Assembly: GCA_019348255.1 (NCBI GenBank)
Contig: JAHWJU010000014.1
Coordinates: 1-35,022, forward strand
Reading direction: 5' to 3'
DNA length: 35,022 nucleotides
Source of the DNA: Actinomycetota bacterium
Lineage (GTDB): Bacteria > Actinomycetota > Acidimicrobiia > Acidimicrobiales > CADCTF01
The notes beneath the pieces were generated by a model, which did not search any database, had not been told where the DNA came from, and worked only from the letters and a program-made list of their open reading frames with translations. This document shows, piece after piece, positions 1,217-9,055 of this stretch (positions are counted from its first letter, which is position 1; each line of letters begins with the position of its first letter). The position numbers and the translations under genes are program-made.

Positions 1217-1261
1217 CTTCCCAAGCTGAGAACGCGGGTTCGATTCCCGTCGCCCGCTCTC
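1217..1261 (+). mobile_element. Attachment site: 3' part of tRNA-Gly(CCC), copy 1
   Basis: The bases run from the anticodon loop (CTTCCCAAG, anticodon CCC) through the T arm (GCGGG-TTCGATT-CCCGT) to the acceptor strand CGCCCGC plus T. This is the 3' portion of a tRNA-Gly. No matching 5' half exists upstream, so it is a displaced tRNA end and not a gene. The same 45 bp recur at 9011-9055 with two differences. Tyrosine integrases commonly cross over in the anticodon-loop region and leave exactly this remnant. It marks the right end of the left element and the left end of the 1262-9010 element. Confidence 0.85.
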
Positions 1262-1331: not shown

Positions 1332-2450
1332 TCATCCGGCATCCGCTTCTTCATCCGGCGCGTCGTCGCCGGATGCCATGGCCTGACGCAGCTCGTCGAA
1401 GATGCCTTGCGCCATTGCGCGATCGGCCTGCGCGGTCCTGTGGAGGTAGCGCAGCGCGGCTTGCGGCGATGACTGCCCGAGGCGCGCCATGAGGTCCTTC
1501 AACGTCGTGCCGGGCACCTTCGCCGCCATCGTGTTCGCCAAGTGCCGGAGGTCGTGCGGCTTGAGGTCGGGACGGACGCCGGTCTCCCGAAGTGCCTTAT
1601 GCCACGCCTTGTAGAACGAGGCGCGCCGCACGCCGCCCTTGCGCCCCGGGAACAGCGGCGCACCGGGACCAGCCGCGACGTGGTGCTCGAGGTGGGCTTC
1701 GAGCAAGGGGACAACCGACTCCGGCATCGTGACGTCGCGGACGCCGGCGGTCGACTTCGGACGACGCACCTGGATGCCGGACGACAGCTCCTGGCGCTGC
1801 TTGTTCACGATGACGCGCCGGTGGAGGAAGTCGAGATCGGCGCGTGTGAGCCCGAGCAGCTCGCCGAGGCGCAGACCGCACGTCGACGCGAGCAGCAGGA
1901 GCGCCCCGTACGGCGGGTCGATCGCCTGCACGAGCGCCAGGGCATCGCTGACCGGGATCAGCGGTCGCTCGTCGCTGGTCTCCAACGCCGCGCCTCGGAC
2001 GCGGCATCGGTTCTTCGCGATGAGGTCGTCCTCGGCGGCCGTGTTCAGGAACGCCATCAGGAGCCGGTAACACTTCGCTGCCTGCGACGGGCTCACGCGC
2101 GCTGACAGGTCGGCGTGCCACAGGCGGACGGCTCGTCTCGTGATCGCGTTCAGCGGTGTGTCGCCGAACGTCGCGACGATGTGCTTGAGCTGGCTCGCGT
2201 AGACCTCCTGGGTCCGCGGCGCGAGCCTCCGCGTCCGCATCCACTCGTCGGCGTACGTCCGCAGCGGGACACGTCCGGCCGTCGGATCGATCCACCGGTC
2301 CCGAGCGCGGTCCGCGCGCTGCTCTGCCTCCCATGCCAGCGCGTCACGCTTCGCGTGGAACGTCTTGCTGTACTTCGTGCCGTCTGGTCGGCGCAGCTCG
2401 ACGTCGTATGCGGTCTTGCCGTTGCGGAGCCGCCTCGTCCGGATGGCCAT
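1332..2450 (-). CDS. int: Tyrosine recombinase/integrase of the tRNA-Gly island
   Basis: This 372-aa protein has the phage-integrase layout. There is an N-terminal arm-binding region (to about residue 60), a SAM-like core-binding domain (about 65-160), and a C-terminal catalytic domain. Visible catalytic residues are Arg in CGLRLGE, Lys in RRPKST, HDLRH, and Tyr in LRYLH. The usual LGH is LGQ here, a substitution seen in some integrases. It catalyses site-specific integration and excision, most likely at the tRNA-Gly repeats 1217-1261 and 9011-9055. The ATG at 2450 has an excellent GGAGGAG ribosome site 9 nt after the stop of the upstream excisionase frame, so the two form a xis-int unit. The gene points toward the tRNA remnant and ends about 70 bp from it, as expected for a tRNA-targeting integrase. 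Confidence 0.93.
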   Translation of the reverse strand: MAIRTRRLRNGKTAYDVELRRPDGTKYSKTFHAKRDALAWEAEQRADRARDRWIDPTAGRVPLRTYADEWMRTRRLAPRTQEVYASQLKHIVATFGDTPLNAITRRAVRLWHADLSARVSPSQAAKCYRLLMAFLNTAAEDDLIAKNRCRVRGAALETSDERPLIPVSDALALVQAIDPPYGALLLLASTCGLRLGELLGLTRADLDFLHRRVIVNKQRQELSSGIQVRRPKSTAGVRDVTMPESVVPLLEAHLEHHVAAGPGAPLFPGRKGGVRRASFYKAWHKALRETGVRPDLKPHDLRHLANTMAAKVPGTTLKDLMARLGQSSPQAALRYLHRTAQADRAMAQGIFDELRQAMASGDDAPDEEADAG

Positions 2451-2883: not shown

Positions 2884-3300
2884 TCAGCGCTTGCGCTTGC
2901 GCTCGTTGCGCTCCATCGCGCGCCGCTGTTGGCGGCTGAGTCCGGGCTCGCGCGAGGGGACGGCCGGGTCGTGCCGCTCGAGCAGCTCGCGGATCCGCGA
3001 CCGGGCAAATGCAAGGTCGGCCTCCGTGCTCCGCAACTGCGCCTGAGTCCGCTCAAGGTCGGACTCCAGGCGTTCGACGCGTGTCGTCGTCCGTTCGAGC
3101 GCCGCTTCGGCGCGGGTGCGTCCGCGAAGCGCATCGCTCAGCTGACGCTTGAGGACTCGGTGCTCCACTCGCAGCTCGTCGACGCTGGCGTGCTCCTCCG
3201 CCTTCCGTTGCCGGTACGCGCGCACGCGTTCGGCCTCGTTGGCCCACTTCCGCGGTCGGCCAGGCCCTCGAGACGGCTCAGGCGCATCCGCCGTCGACAT
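2884..3300 (-). CDS. Small basic coiled-coil protein with AT-hook-like motif
   Basis: This 138-aa protein begins at ATG 3300. The N-terminus has RGPGRPRKW (about residues 10-18), an AT-hook-like minor-groove-binding motif, followed by ERVRAYRQRKAEEH. The middle (about 35-105) is a long charged helix with heptad character: RVEHRVLKRQLSDAL, RTTTRVERLESDLERTQAQL, and EADLAFARSRIRELLE. The C-terminus is strongly basic (RRAMERNERKRKR). Such proteins sit beside integrases in actinobacterial islands and plasmids and may be DNA-bridging or regulatory factors, but I do not recognise a named family. It lies upstream of xis-int on the same strand, about 100 bp away. Confidence 0.7.
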   Translation of the reverse strand: MSTADAPEPSRGPGRPRKWANEAERVRAYRQRKAEEHASVDELRVEHRVLKRQLSDALRGRTRAEAALERTTTRVERLESDLERTQAQLRSTEADLAFARSRIRELLERHDPAVPSREPGLSRQQRRAMERNERKRKR

Positions 3301-3356
3301 GGTAATAACCGTACGACATGAAACCGTCCGGCGGTACCCGTGCATATTGTGTGAGC

Positions 3357-3633: not shown

Positions 3634-4065
3634 GTGGAACCGCGGTTTGAGCTCCGCTCCGACGGGATCGTCGACTGTCTGCTGGATGGTCGGAGCTTGC
3701 TCAACGAGGCGCTCGCAGATGCAGTTTCCAGTCGTGCTCCGCGCGGTGCGCTGCATCCCGGTCTCTCGACTTACTGGATCGATCGCACCGAAGAGGCCGT
3801 CCGACGGGCAGTCCAGCATCGGCTGCAAGAACCGTTCGCGACGGGGAACGTGACCTACCTCAGCCTCAAGGGCGACCTTGTTGTCGCCGCATACGACTTC
3901 GATGGCGAGGACGGGCAGACCGAGTCGATTCCGGTCGACGAGTTCGTCCACATACTCACCCTTTGGCGTCAGGAGGTTGTGGGTGCGGGTGGGGTCAGCG
4001 GCGACGACGCCGCTGCTCTGCAGGACGAACCGCGCGCCCGTCCGATGCCTCCGGCGTCGGAGTGA
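3634..4065 (+). CDS. Uncharacterised protein, first gene of the dioxygenase-HEPN cassette
   Basis: GTG 3634 gives 143 aa. The coherent part runs from FELRSDGIVDCLLDGRSLLN through NVTYLSLKGDLVVAAYDFDG to PVDEFVHILTLW. It is an alternating strand/helix pattern typical of a small folded alpha/beta protein. The tail after about residue 110 is polar and probably disordered. It ends 13 bp before the dioxygenase-like gene, suggesting co-transcription. The antisense strand is also open here because codons are in register, but the plus reading is favoured by its hydrophobic pattern and the two plus-strand genes that follow. Longer in-frame starts upstream would cross the C-rich tract and are less likely. 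I do not recognise the family. Confidence 0.6.
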   Translation: MEPRFELRSDGIVDCLLDGRSLLNEALADAVSSRAPRGALHPGLSTYWIDRTEEAVRRAVQHRLQEPFATGNVTYLSLKGDLVVAAYDFDGEDGQTESIPVDEFVHILTLWRQEVVGAGGVSGDDAAALQDEPRARPMPPASE

Positions 4066-4078
4066 TGAGAATCCATCC

Positions 4079-4741
4079 GTGAACAGCGGCCCGACTACAG
4101 CAACGACCCTTCGCATCGCGATCGACGAGGCGAAGAGGACTGGCTGGGCCCGGTACGAAGGCGAATTTGCGGACGTGAGCTCGTCGGCGCTCGAGCTTGG
4201 CTACGTACCTGTCCCGACGAGGAAGCATGACCCAGAGGTCGCGCTGATTCAGCCCCGCGATCCATCCTCTGCCCGGCGCATGTCCATGAGCGCAAGGTAT
4301 GGGCTCGGCTCGCTACCGCTCCACACCGACGGCGCACACATGGCAATGCCGCCAGAGCTGACGATCCTTACGTCGGATCGCGAGAGCGGTGTCGGCACGT
4401 ACCTGCTGTATGTGGGCACCGGTGCGATGCCGCCCGATGTGGAGGAGGCTGCTCGCCACGGGGTCTTCGCCGTTCGTGACGGAGCGGCCGTGCGAAGTGT
4501 CACCGCTCGTCAGCGAGACGGAGCCCTGCGATTCGACCCGGTAGCTATGGCACCACGTGACGATCTCGCCCGGGCCGTCGTCCGCTACTTCGAGCAGGCT
4601 ACGTACGCTGCAGAAGTCCACCGTTGGCAGGCGCGTGAGGTTCTAGTGATCGACAACACATCGGTGGTTCATGGCCGCGAGAAGGCGGAGAACTCTCCCG
4701 ACCGTGAGTTGCGACGCTTGATGCTCCGGAGGGCGCCGTGA
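4079..4741 (+). CDS. TauD/TfdA-like Fe(II)/2-oxoglutarate dioxygenase
   Basis: GTG 4079 gives 220 aa. It has the Fe(II)/2-oxoglutarate dioxygenase signature. H82-x-D84 lies in PLHTDGAHMAMPPELTIL. The distal His198 and Arg200 are in VLVIDNTSVVHGR, and basic residues in ELRRLMLRR can bind 2-oxoglutarate. The VIDNTSVVHGR block strongly resembles the C-terminal part of the clavaminate-synthase/TauD fold. These enzymes hydroxylate small molecules, amino-acid side chains or nucleic-acid substrates. At 220 aa it is shorter than typical TauD (about 280), so some lid elements are missing. Its stop overlaps the next gene's start by 4 nt (GTGA), so it is probably translationally coupled to the HEPN gene. 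The substrate is unknown. Confidence 0.8.
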   Translation: MNSGPTTATTLRIAIDEAKRTGWARYEGEFADVSSSALELGYVPVPTRKHDPEVALIQPRDPSSARRMSMSARYGLGSLPLHTDGAHMAMPPELTILTSDRESGVGTYLLYVGTGAMPPDVEEAARHGVFAVRDGAAVRSVTARQRDGALRFDPVAMAPRDDLARAVVRYFEQATYAAEVHRWQAREVLVIDNTSVVHGREKAENSPDRELRRLMLRRAP

Positions 4742-5640
4742 CCGCGAAACCGTTCGACCATGAATCCCTTTGGCTCAAGGCCAAGTCATTCATCAATCGA
4801 TCATTCGCCGCGGCCGACACCGGTGACTTCGACGAGGCCGCGTTGTGGGCATCATGCGCACTCGAGCTTCTTGGAAAGGCTGCGCTGAGCAAGGTCAGTC
4901 CTTTGCTCGTCGCGGACCCAAGCGACGACGGCAAGAGTTTGTTGATCGCCGCTGGACTCTCGTCAGACTTCGCCGGATTCAAATCGATCCAGGCCAAGGC
5001 GGTGTTCAGCCGATGCGCGCGAGCGTTCCCGCCGTTCAGCGAATTGAGAGCGAACCAGATCGCGGTCAACCGCAACGAGGAGCTGCATTCCGGTGGCCTG
5101 CCTTTCGCTGCGGTCCACCAGGACGTGTGGTGGCAGACGTTCTGGGCTCTGGCGACCGTGTTGGCGCAGGCACGGGACCGCACACTCGATGAGCTTGTCC
5201 CCGCGAACCGAGTCAAGACGGTTGAAGAGCACCTGGCACGCAATGCGGAGAACATCAAGCTGCGGGTCGAGTCGCTTATCCAGCGAGCGACCCAGCGGCT
5301 TCAGCTCCTCGATGCCGCAGTTCTGACTGCGCAAGTTCACGCCGAGCTGTCAGCTCGAGCCGCCGCAATCTCGCTCGAACACCTCGCGTCACACCGATGC
5401 CCGGCCTGCGGCGGAATCGGGTTCCTGCACGGCGACTACGTCGGGGAGAGCGACGTGCAGTACGACTACGAGGACGCGACAGCTACGGAGACACTCACCG
5501 TCTTGGTCGAGAGCTTCTCGTGCGAGAACTGCGGCCTCGTTCTGCCCGAGCAGGAGTTCATCGCCGTTGCCGAGCTACCGGACACCTTCATCGTCGAGCG
5601 TGAGTACGAACCGGAATACGACGACTACGGCAACGAATGA
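4738..5640 (+). CDS. HEPN-domain protein with C-terminal zinc ribbon
   Basis: GTG 4738 overlaps the dioxygenase stop; 300 aa. The N-terminal helices (FDEAALWASCALELLGKAAL, about residues 31-50) resemble the first HEPN helix pair. R112-N113-x3-H117 (RNEELH) fits the HEPN RNase motif R-(N/D/H)-x3-H, whose Arg and His are catalytic in many HEPN toxins and defence nucleases. Residues 150-215 are helical. C221PAC224 and C262ENC265 form a probable zinc ribbon, and the C-terminus is acidic (EREYEPEYDDYGNE). HEPN proteins commonly cleave RNA in toxin-antitoxin and anti-phage systems. Coupling to a dioxygenase is unusual. Activity is inferred from the motif; the partner relationship is inferred from operon structure. 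Confidence 0.75.
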   Translation: MTAKPFDHESLWLKAKSFINRSFAAADTGDFDEAALWASCALELLGKAALSKVSPLLVADPSDDGKSLLIAAGLSSDFAGFKSIQAKAVFSRCARAFPPFSELRANQIAVNRNEELHSGGLPFAAVHQDVWWQTFWALATVLAQARDRTLDELVPANRVKTVEEHLARNAENIKLRVESLIQRATQRLQLLDAAVLTAQVHAELSARAAAISLEHLASHRCPACGGIGFLHGDYVGESDVQYDYEDATATETLTVLVESFSCENCGLVLPEQEFIAVAELPDTFIVEREYEPEYDDYGNE

Positions 5641-5662: not shown

Positions 5663-6241
5663 CTATGCCGTGTCGCCATCCTTGACCGCACGAAGGCGGC
5701 GCGGGTCAGCGGGCAGCGACTCCCACACCTCCTCGTCCACGAGCCGTGGGAGCTCCTTGGGCGCCAGGTGTTCCTCGAAGATCGCGAAGGTCTCACCGAG
5801 GCGGGTGGCCGCCGGCGCCAGGATGCCGTGGAGCCCAAGCTGATGAGCCGCGCGCGCGACCTGCCAGCACGGTTCGTACTCGCCGACGGGCGAGCGGAGG
5901 TCCGCCTCCGACAATCCGACGGACGCAGCTGCCGCCGGGTCCCGGAGGTCGAGCACATCAGACACGCCGACCTCGACGAGGAGCAGCCGACGGGGCTGCA
6001 CCATGTCGCCTGTCATGCCGTCGAACGGATCGACAAGGTGCCGGTAGGCCTCCACGACGACTGACGCTCGTGGCCGCCCGAGATACAAGACCGAGAACGC
6101 GCCGGGCGGCCCCCAGCGGCCGCCCGCGCTGCTCCCGGTAAGCCCTCGCCAGTCGCGGCTGGCATGGCGCTCGAAGGTGCCCTCGACCTGCGTGCGCGGC
6201 GCCCGGCCAACAGCGACGATGAGTTCCCGGCGGCTGACCAC
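5663..6241 (-). CDS. RES-domain toxin (NAD+-targeting family)
   Basis: GTG 6241 directly follows the antitoxin stop (TAGGTG); 192 aa. RES-family features are GTFERHAS (conserved Arg), GGRW, SVLYLGRPRASVVVEAYRHL (conserved Glu) and, near the end, HGILAPAATRLGETFAIFEE. RES toxins degrade or phosphorolyse NAD+. The family is named for conserved Arg, Glu and Ser. The position normally read as PS-A in this last block is PAA here, so the expected Ser appears to be Ala. The toxin may be inactive, or another residue may substitute. It forms a bicistronic module with the gene at 6242-6595, in the antitoxin-first order typical of Xre-RES systems. Confidence 0.83.
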   Translation of the reverse strand: MVSRRELIVAVGRAPRTQVEGTFERHASRDWRGLTGSSAGGRWGPPGAFSVLYLGRPRASVVVEAYRHLVDPFDGMTGDMVQPRRLLLVEVGVSDVLDLRDPAAAASVGLSEADLRSPVGEYEPCWQVARAAHQLGLHGILAPAATRLGETFAIFEEHLAPKELPRLVDEEVWESLPADPRRLRAVKDGDTA

Positions 6242-6595
6242 CTACATCGCTCCCGCTCGCAGGCGCTCCACCGACTGGACCACCGGCTGGAAGTCGCCGG
6301 CGGCGAGGAGGTCGATGGGGCGGGCGCCCTCGAATTCTGGGTTCTTGGCGTGCATCCAGATCTCGACGCCCTCCGGGCGGTACACGGCGCCGAGCAGACG
6401 GACCACGTAGTGCGTGTCGACGAGCCGATCCCGAGTCTCGTCGCGTGGGCGCGAACTACCCGCAGCCCAGTGCTGCACTTGCCGTTCCTTGACTCCGGTC
6501 GCCCTGGCGATGTCGCAGTTGCTGAGGCCGGCCGCCCTGATCTCACGAACGATCTCTTGATAGGAGAACCCGGCCTGAGGGGTTGCTTGGGTCAA
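6242..6595 (-). CDS. Xre/MbcA/ParS-like antitoxin of the RES toxin
   Basis: This 117-aa protein starts at TTG 6595, preceded by a GGGGGTG ribosome-binding stretch. The N-terminal half is a helix-turn-helix (SNCDIARATGVKERQVQHWA, about residues 25-44). The C-terminal half (WMHAKNPEFEGARPIDLLAA, then VVQSVERL) matches the MbcA/ParS/Xre antitoxin toxin-binding domain. It neutralises the downstream RES toxin and probably represses its own promoter. The stop abuts the toxin start, ensuring coupled translation. The promoter region contains a 12-bp-period repeat (6634-6652) suited to autoregulation. Confidence 0.85.
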   Translation of the reverse strand: MTQATPQAGFSYQEIVREIRAAGLSNCDIARATGVKERQVQHWAAGSSRPRDETRDRLVDTHYVVRLLGAVYRPEGVEIWMHAKNPEFEGARPIDLLAAGDFQPVVQSVERLRAGAM

Positions 6596-6633: not shown

Positions 6634-6652
6634 GATGACGTAGTAGATGACG
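6634..6652. promoter_or_regulatory. Candidate antitoxin operator
   Basis: GATGACG occurs at 6634-6640 and again at 6646-6652, giving a 12-bp direct periodicity. It lies 40-60 bp upstream of the antitoxin start and just before the divergent gene at 6698. Xre-type antitoxins usually bind repeats in their own promoter. The repeat is seen directly; the role is inference. Confidence 0.4.
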
Positions 6653-6697
6653 CGTACCATAGCGTCACTTCCTCCGCATGACGAATCGAGGTGCCTG

Positions 6698-7915
6698 ATG
6701 GCACAGCTCCTCATCCGGCCGTCGCTCAACGACCACCAGGTGATCGCGGACCTCCTCGCGCCCCCGCCGATGCCGACGATCCGGCGGTCGCGCCCACCGA
6801 TCGCTCAGCTGGTCGCCGATGCGCACATCGCCGCGCAGCGCCCGACGCTTGCCGAGTCGGCGAACGACGCGGGCATCCCCTTCCTGGTCGATCCGACGAC
6901 GGTGCTCCTGCAGAGCGACGTCGATCCCACCTCCTCCTGGGCGAAGCTGCCGTTCGCATCGGCGCGACCGCTGTCGGTCGATGACATCGACGTCGAGGGT
7001 CTGGTCGAGCAGGTCGTGCAGTTCCAGATGGAGCAGGGCGCCACACGGATCATCGCTCCGTACCTGTACGCATCTGAACCGGGGGATCCGGCGTTCGCCA
7101 TGTCGATCCGTTTGCTGGCATCGACGGCTCACTACGTGCGCGACAACGACGTCCCCCTTCCGGTTGTGGCAATCCTCTGCGGCCAGCTTCGCCAGTTCGC
7201 GAGCGCTCAGGCGCTCGATCTCGGCGTGGGTCGCTTCGTCGATGCCGCGGAGGCGCATGGCGTTCACACGGTGGGACTGTGCTTCTCCCCTGTGGGAACG
7301 CCGGGCGATAGCTACTCGAAGTTGGTCGGGCTGTTTCGGGCGGCGGCCCGTGCGACTCGGGCGCCGATGCCGATCGTTGCGTGGCGACAAGGCATCTACG
7401 GGCCGGCGCTCGTTGCGGCGGGTCTGGCTGGCTACGAGACCGGCATCGGGACAGGCGAGCAGACGAACATCGCGCGCCAGCAGGCCAACCGCCGCGCCAA
7501 GGACAAGGCGAGGCGGACCGGTGGCGGGCCGGGTACCTACCTCGACCAGTTCGGGCGGAGCATCCCGAAGCCAGCGGCGGAGCTGCTCCTGGGCATCAAC
7601 GAGATGCGCCCGAAGCTGATGTGCGATGACGAGGGGTGCTGCCCGACGGTCGCCGACACGCTCGACAACGGACGCCCGCATGCCGTGCGCAGCCGCGCCC
7701 GCCAGCTCGCCGAGCTCGCGGAGCAGCCTCACCGCCGCTGGCGGCTCCACACCGTGGCGCGACACGCGGAGGCGGCTGCCACTCTCGCCAAGCAGGCGAA
7801 CCGCGTGCTGGAGTCAGCAGCCATCAAGCACAAGATCGGCACGAAGAACCTCGAGGCGTTGGCCCAGGTGATGACCGAACTGGGCCAGGCGGACCAGACA
7901 TCGCGCTCGGCGTAG
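6698..7915 (+). CDS. Uncharacterised 405-aa protein, barrel-like pattern
   Basis: ATG 6698 has GAGGTG seven bases upstream, so it is preferred over an in-frame ATG at 6647 that lies inside the antitoxin operator repeat. The middle alternates hydrophobic strands and helices (GIPFLVDPTTVLL, TRIIAPYLYASEPG, VPLPVVAILCGQL, VHTVGLCFSPVG, PMPIVAWRQGIYG), resembling a TIM-barrel-type fold. AGYETGIGTGEQTNI follows. After a basic linker (RRAKDKARRTGGGPG), CDDEGCCP is a cysteine cluster that could bind metal. The C-terminus is helical. I recognise no named family. It is transcribed divergently from the toxin-antitoxin pair and shares that intergenic region. Confidence 0.7.
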   Translation: MAQLLIRPSLNDHQVIADLLAPPPMPTIRRSRPPIAQLVADAHIAAQRPTLAESANDAGIPFLVDPTTVLLQSDVDPTSSWAKLPFASARPLSVDDIDVEGLVEQVVQFQMEQGATRIIAPYLYASEPGDPAFAMSIRLLASTAHYVRDNDVPLPVVAILCGQLRQFASAQALDLGVGRFVDAAEAHGVHTVGLCFSPVGTPGDSYSKLVGLFRAAARATRAPMPIVAWRQGIYGPALVAAGLAGYETGIGTGEQTNIARQQANRRAKDKARRTGGGPGTYLDQFGRSIPKPAAELLLGINEMRPKLMCDDEGCCPTVADTLDNGRPHAVRSRARQLAELAEQPHRRWRLHTVARHAEAAATLAKQANRVLESAAIKHKIGTKNLEALAQVMTELGQADQTSRSA

Positions 7916-9010: not shown

Positions 9011-9055
9011 CTTCCCAAGCTGAGAACGCGAGTTCGATTCTCGTCGCCCGCTCTC
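9011..9055 (+). mobile_element. Attachment site: 3' part of tRNA-Gly(CCC), copy 2
   Basis: This direct repeat of 1217-1261 runs from the anticodon loop to the acceptor end, again without a 5' half. The two differences (9031 A for G, 9041 T for C) are partners in the T stem, so GCGGG/CCCGT becomes GCGAG/CTCGT with pairing preserved. It marks the right boundary of the 7.8-kb island; host-type genes begin after it. Confidence 0.85.

Follow-up and report, generated by a model that had tools for sequence, protein, structure and literature searches.

A mobile gene pair encoding a predicted HEPN ribonuclease and a 2-oxoglutarate-dependent oxygenase as a candidate bacterial conflict module

HEPN RNases are central effectors in bacterial conflict. 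The preliminary description of the 35,022-nt stretch of DNA analysed here (the window, which is one entire contig of a 3.0-Mb assembly with 314 contigs) had singled out three same-strand genes in an integrative island, encoding an unknown protein, an Fe(II)/2-oxoglutarate (2OG) dioxygenase and a HEPN/zinc-ribbon protein, as a possible undescribed conflict cassette. This raises the questions of whether the three genes form a unit, and of what a hydroxylase-like enzyme could do for a HEPN protein. The three frames do lie on the plus strand, with a gap of 13 bp between genes 1 and 2 and an overlap of 4 nt between genes 2 and 3 (Table 1). The island was borne out as well: a tyrosine integrase gene is present, and two flanking 3' ends of tRNA-Gly(CCC) enclose an element of about 7.8 kb that contains the oxygenase-HEPN cassette. 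An intact tRNA-Gly(ccc) with the identical 3' end is located on a different contig (C141) of the genome. As neither copy in the window is more than a 3' fragment, it is possible that the element integrated in tandem or at a secondary site.

Table 1. Coordinates of the cassette, the surrounding mobile element and neighbouring genes in the window
Feature	Position	Strand	Basis
Left tRNA-Gly(CCC) 3' end copy, attachment-site copy	1217-1261	+	45-nt repeat
Tyrosine integrase of the element	1332-2450	-	PF00589, E 1.5e-15
Gene 1, orphan open frame	3634-4065	+	no family, no homologue
Gene 2, TauD/clavaminate-synthase-like Fe(II)/2OG oxygenase, 220 aa	4079-4741	+	PF02668, E 1.1e-8
GTGA 4-nt overlap, HEPN start within oxygenase stop	4738-4741	+	
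Gene 3, HEPN/zinc-ribbon protein, 300 aa, predicted RNase effector	4738-5640	+	motif, four Cys, AlphaFold
Codons for the conserved C-terminal end (YGNE), candidate site of modification or docking	5626-5637	+	
RES toxin	5663-6241	-	PF08808, E 2e-16
Xre/MbcA/ParS-type antitoxin	6242-6595	-	PF09722, E 1.7e-6
Right tRNA-Gly(CCC) 3' end copy	9011-9055	+	45-nt repeat

The element carries further genes. The RES/Xre toxin-antitoxin pair, which also has an NF049845 match, is convergent with the HEPN gene and is a neighbour outside the oxygenase-HEPN module. A small frame adjoining the integrase gene (2884-3309, minus strand) encodes a protein that starts with MSTADAPEPSRGPGRPRKW and contains a long coiled coil; it had no PHROG match. 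A protein of 422 aa is encoded at 6647-7915 (plus strand), and it matched no family in Pfam, NCBIfam or PHROGs.

GTDB genomes were scanned with a profile of the HEPN protein, and the oxygenase was left out of the query. An earlier scan of genome contigs with the single window protein had yielded no match, whereas the profile recovered 64 loci, which belonged to the Actinomycetota, the Alpha-, Beta- and Gammaproteobacteria, the Magnetococcales, the Planctomycetota and the Verrucomicrobiota. The oxygenase gene was found directly upstream of the HEPN gene in 63 of the 63 genome loci that keep the HEPN frame, the oxygenase being a remnant in one of them. When plasmids were included, the two genes overlapped by 4 nt in 45 of 73 pairs and by 8 nt in another 21, such that these two arrangements accounted for 66 of the 73. 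The distance matrices of the two proteins were highly correlated (r = 0.915, n = 65 pairs), and the best of 999 permutations reached only 0.115. Among 72,556 plasmids, the HEPN protein was encoded on 50 records. When the oxygenase from one clade served as the query, 46 plasmids were retrieved, all of which were, by organism and accession, among the HEPN-bearing records. Two of the records with a HEPN match only were inspected, and they contained distant Streptomyces relatives without oxygenase. The pAt plasmids of Agrobacterium were also considered as carriers of a HEPN gene without oxygenase, but this was rejected, as an unannotated frame immediately upstream encodes the oxygenase (E 6e-8). 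Based on the strict pairing, the plasmid reciprocity and the correlation of the distances, the oxygenase and the HEPN protein are one co-inherited unit.

Gene 1 does not belong to this unit. Searches by tblastn of the 72,556 plasmids (E<=1) and of 198 genomes belonging to the class, where the best E-value was 1e-3, gave no homologue, no relative was present in any locus with the oxygenase-HEPN pair, and the codon-position composition left even the coding strand ambiguous. It was therefore rejected as a third component. Thus, the proposed three-gene cassette shrinks to genes 2 and 3: co-occurrence far beyond chance holds for these two, but not for gene 1. For the remaining pair, the proposal stood, i.e. 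a conserved unit in defence-like neighbourhoods that is undescribed in the sources searched.

The product of gene 2 is a predicted 2OG-dependent hydroxylase. Its PF02668 (TauD) score exceeds the Pfam gathering threshold, and the sequence profile matched clavaminate synthase 1 best (E 3e-16). The HxD...H and HGR motifs noted before were recovered as H82-T-D84 and H198-G-R200, with R209 and R213 further downstream. In an alignment of 47 diverse homologues, H82, D/E84 and R213 were conserved in 47 of 47 sequences, and H198 and R209 in 46 of 47, the exception for H198 being a frameshift. The AlphaFold model had a pLDDT of 95.7, and the closest PDB folds were AsnO (2og7, E 4.6e-11), followed by clavaminate synthase (1ds0) and other amino-acid hydroxylases, including lysine and arginine hydroxylases. 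In the alignment, R209 and R213 fall on a pair of arginines near the C-terminus of clavaminate synthase, of which the former binds the 2OG carboxylate and the latter holds the substrate carboxylate. With a double-stranded beta-helix, an HxD/E...H site and a 2OG arginine, the protein belongs to the TauD/clavaminate-synthase-like Fe(II)/2OG oxygenases, and the label "cupin" used in the preliminary description was loosely right, the precise fold being a double-stranded beta-helix as in the clavaminate-synthase group. The protein is about 100 residues, or about a third, shorter than its AsnO and clavaminate-synthase relatives. This small size suggests an open active site that would be suited to a peptide.

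The product of gene 3 is likely a member of the HEPN superfamily and a predicted RNase. R112, N113 and H117 of the RNxxxH motif and the four cysteines (C221xxC224 and C262xxC265) were present in 47 of 47 homologues. Since the motifs of both proteins are invariant or nearly so in diverse homologues, they are not chance occurrences. The AlphaFold model was of high quality (pLDDT 92.9, pTM 0.86); its N-terminal half is helical with high confidence, and the R-N-x3-H motif lies in the helix comprising residues 102-118. Family matches were weak: the Pfam HEPN match had an E-value of 0.13, with no family over threshold, and relatives matched DUF3644/PtuB with E-values of about 0.01, under any curated threshold. 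A search of solved structures with the HEPN profile gave chance matches only, and the viral fold library contained no significant match. The fold comparison of the model with Foldseek gave HEPN entries as best plausible matches (2hsb, 1wol, Csm6 and AbiV), the match to 2hsb having a TM-score of 0.66 (by target), all with E-values above 1 and thus insignificant. Therefore, the HEPN assignment rests on motif and topology, and of the two folds expected, that of the oxygenase was recovered clearly and that of the HEPN protein in the form of these matches.

Genes adjoining the pair were rich in defence functions. The 110 proteins of nearest neighbours matched 191 PADLOC models and the 95 next neighbours 239 models (E<=1e-10), compared to 17 models for an equal-sized gene set from arbitrary actinobacterial positions; the high counts are inflated by model redundancy, and the control was not taxon-matched. 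Individual matches were unambiguous, among them those to Gabija (GajA, E 1e-286; GajB, E 1e-266), a type I restriction enzyme (R-M), PDC-S06, PDC-S68 and AbiH; a Ppl-like ATPase was also matched. In seven alphaproteobacterial or plasmid loci (L009 2325-6915, L011 2304-6906, L037, L044, L046, L048 and L052), a gene for a Ppl/TrlF ATPase is located directly upstream of the oxygenase gene, at a distance of 8-9 nt or overlapping. Two of these, L009 and L011, also have a gene for a GIY-YIG nuclease downstream of the HEPN gene, and a TrlF-oxygenase-HEPN-GIY-YIG arrangement is a possible extended, four-gene version. A HEPN/zinc-ribbon relative without oxygenase is encoded immediately after a Shedu-like SduA (DUF4263) gene in L004 (255-2418, a region shared with L101). 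The pair was also observed on large plasmids of clinical-type bacteria, namely a megaplasmid of P. aeruginosa (L010) and an OXA-23 plasmid of Acinetobacter wuhouensis (L094). A phage origin of the pair was rejected, as 50,697 phage records yielded no match and IMG/VR a single contig.

This context bears on one alternative, i.e. a metabolic or stress-response pair without a role in conflict, which is in keeping with the mostly metabolic functions of TauD-like enzymes and the common annotation of the oxygenase as "TauD/TfdA family dioxygenase", but which we regard as very improbable in view of the plasmid, island and defence-gene context, the variable neighbours, among which no metabolic operon partner was seen, and the sporadic occurrence (in 2 of 396 genomes from the phylum).

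Because of the pairing, the overlap, the intact active sites and the context, it is quite probable that the two genes form a conflict module whose effector is a HEPN RNase. The observed pairing, overlap, co-inheritance, catalytic residues, HEPN-like and AsnO/clavaminate-synthase-like folds and mobile, defence-rich context are the basis of the following proposal. The HEPN/zinc-ribbon protein would be the effector, most likely a dimeric RNase that its partner either restrains or arms. This partner, the minimal oxygenase translated together with it, would act as a modifying regulator, most likely by hydroxylating a residue in the HEPN protein, and the modification could either silence or arm the latter. 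The HEPN activity would then depend on the modification, and hence on O2, 2OG or Fe; phage interference with the oxygenase would be an alternative input. To this reading as a whole, a mobile two-gene conflict module in which hydroxylation of the effector controls its activity, we give an even chance. That the HEPN protein is the substrate is the most economical assumption, its probability being just short of even.

If the HEPN protein is modified, its C-terminus is the best candidate for the site. The protein of the window has an acidic tail with the end EYDDYGNE, and the commonest tail in relatives is exactly ...YGND-COOH. Of 74 HEPN proteins linked to an oxygenase, 73 have an Asn among their five C-terminal residues (the background of Asn being 2.5%), compared with none of six relatives without oxygenase, which end with RDVT, DVDY, YRDR, YRER, YGGR and PQAG; these counts are phylogenetically non-independent, and relatedness inflates both of them. 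The sole oxygenase-linked member without this Asn is from Agrobacterium and ends with ...YQDE. YGND as a universal signature was weakened by an alphaproteobacterial clade with the tail ...NNER, which has Asn at positions -3/-4, and the feature shared by the clades is an Asn close to the C-terminal end. As this conserved Asn coincides with an AsnO-like partner that is about 100 residues shorter than its relatives, the tail stands out as the best candidate for a place where the oxygenase could act or dock. That the HEPN protein is modified is made more plausible by how strictly the two genes are paired, by the resemblance of the oxygenase fold to AsnO and by the conservation of the Asn-containing C-terminus. 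Nevertheless, an action specifically on the tail stays tentative, and the fully specified version, in which the HEPN RNase is switched by 2OG/O2-dependent hydroxylation of the Asn/Asp of its own tail (...YGND-COOH) by a dedicated AsnO-like enzyme, is doubtful.

Two other explanations were weighed. According to the first, the oxygenase makes or destroys a small-molecule or RNA/nucleotide signal that is sensed via the zinc-ribbon part of the HEPN protein, and the tail serves for docking or oligomerisation only. A protein substrate is indeed challenged by the fact that the nearest characterised oxygenases, AsnO, clavaminate synthase and the lysine and arginine hydroxylases, act on free amino acids or similar compounds, and the full conservation of R213, whose counterpart in clavaminate synthase holds a substrate carboxylate, fits such a substrate. 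The logic of a signal combined with a HEPN protein is, furthermore, known from type III CRISPR. However, the oxygenase lacks about 100 residues of these enzymes, the strict 1:1 pairing, the gene overlap and the tail conservation better suit a protein partner, and no distinct signal-binding domain was seen in the HEPN protein beyond the C-terminal zinc/beta region. We therefore consider a signal unlikely, while taking it seriously.

According to the second, the pair is a conventional toxin-antitoxin system, in which the oxygenase-fold protein neutralises the HEPN protein by binding and catalysis is incidental. The arrangement of a small upstream gene and a downstream HEPN gene with a 4-nt overlap is in line with this, as are four copies in which the oxygenase is kept and the HEPN gene is broken (L013, L061, L077 and L097). 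In L077 (5974-6393), the HEPN protein ends after about residue 100 at a foreign coding sequence while the oxygenase is intact, probably due to the insertion of a mobile element. Yet pure binding would not need metal- and 2OG-binding residues that are invariant over several phyla, and in two copies the HEPN gene is intact and the adjoining oxygenase gene damaged, on a plasmid of B. quebecense (L008, N-terminal frameshift) and in Pseudonocardia (L015, C-terminal frameshift). These two copies speak against a strict antitoxin role, unless the damage is a sequencing error or the product is partly active. Deriving a direction of antitoxin control from the broken copies was given up, as four broken HEPN genes versus two broken oxygenase genes are not decisive. 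Taken together, neutralisation by mere binding appears improbable.

Control of the HEPN effector through hydroxylation can be compared with several known systems. Known HEPN controls include nucleotidylation, cyclic oligoadenylates and binding partners. If the proposal is true, hydroxylation of a protein (or a signal) joins this list, with a built-in dependence on O2, 2OG and iron. For such a hydroxylation-controlled toxin or defence effector, a tentative idea at present, no bacterial precedent was found in the sources searched. PADLOC had no match to window proteins at E<=1 and no model for either protein of the pair, NCBIfam and PHROGs held no useful model for them, the pair is undescribed in Pfam, and the open-access journal literature yielded no system combining HEPN with TauD, TfdA, 2OGFeDO or dioxygenase. 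A survey of HEPN proteins contains no mention of dioxygenase or oxoglutarate and does not describe an oxygenase partner (PMC3710099). It does describe HEPN proteins of the DUF3644/DUF4145 type that have an RN(x)3H motif, and in some cases zinc ribbons, and that are encoded near R-M and defence genes (PMC3710099); the protein studied here has the HEPN motif in common with them, and the DUF3644 match of its relatives is weak and sub-threshold.

The oxygenase shares the fold, the HxD/E...H triad, the 2OG arginine and the following arginine with the AsnO/clavaminate synthase/VioC group, but it is about 100 residues shorter, has an identity of only about 18%, and adjoins a HEPN gene, whereas that group is found in antibiotic clusters. 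With the Ppl/TrlF defence ATPase, the pair, in part extended by GIY-YIG, shares an operon in the seven loci described above; as most loci, the window among them, lack the ATPase, it is an optional associate and not part of the core.

The closest parallel is the HEPN-MNT (HepT-MntA) type VII toxin-antitoxin system, in which the partner enzyme modifies the HEPN protein (PMC11586414). Both consist of two genes, for a HEPN RNase (predicted in the present case) and an enzyme, with a mobile context and a similar gene order (PMC11586414). Pairing and gene order thus fit a type VII comparison, while L008 and L015 are at variance with its strict version. The differences are considerable: the partner is a PF02668 2OG oxygenase instead of a minimal nucleotidyltransferase, modification of the HEPN protein is presumed here, the latter possesses a zinc-ribbon/beta region in its C-terminal part as well as a conserved tail at the terminus, and a sequence relation to the HEPN proteins of HEPN-MNT was undetectable by the searches that were run. 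The oxygenase-HEPN pair therefore looks like an undescribed conflict module among the HEPN modules with an enzyme partner, in which this partner is an oxygenase that is strictly paired, plasmid-borne and phylum-crossing; as a simple two-gene system, it is sufficiently defined by profiles, residues and tail to be sought in any genome.
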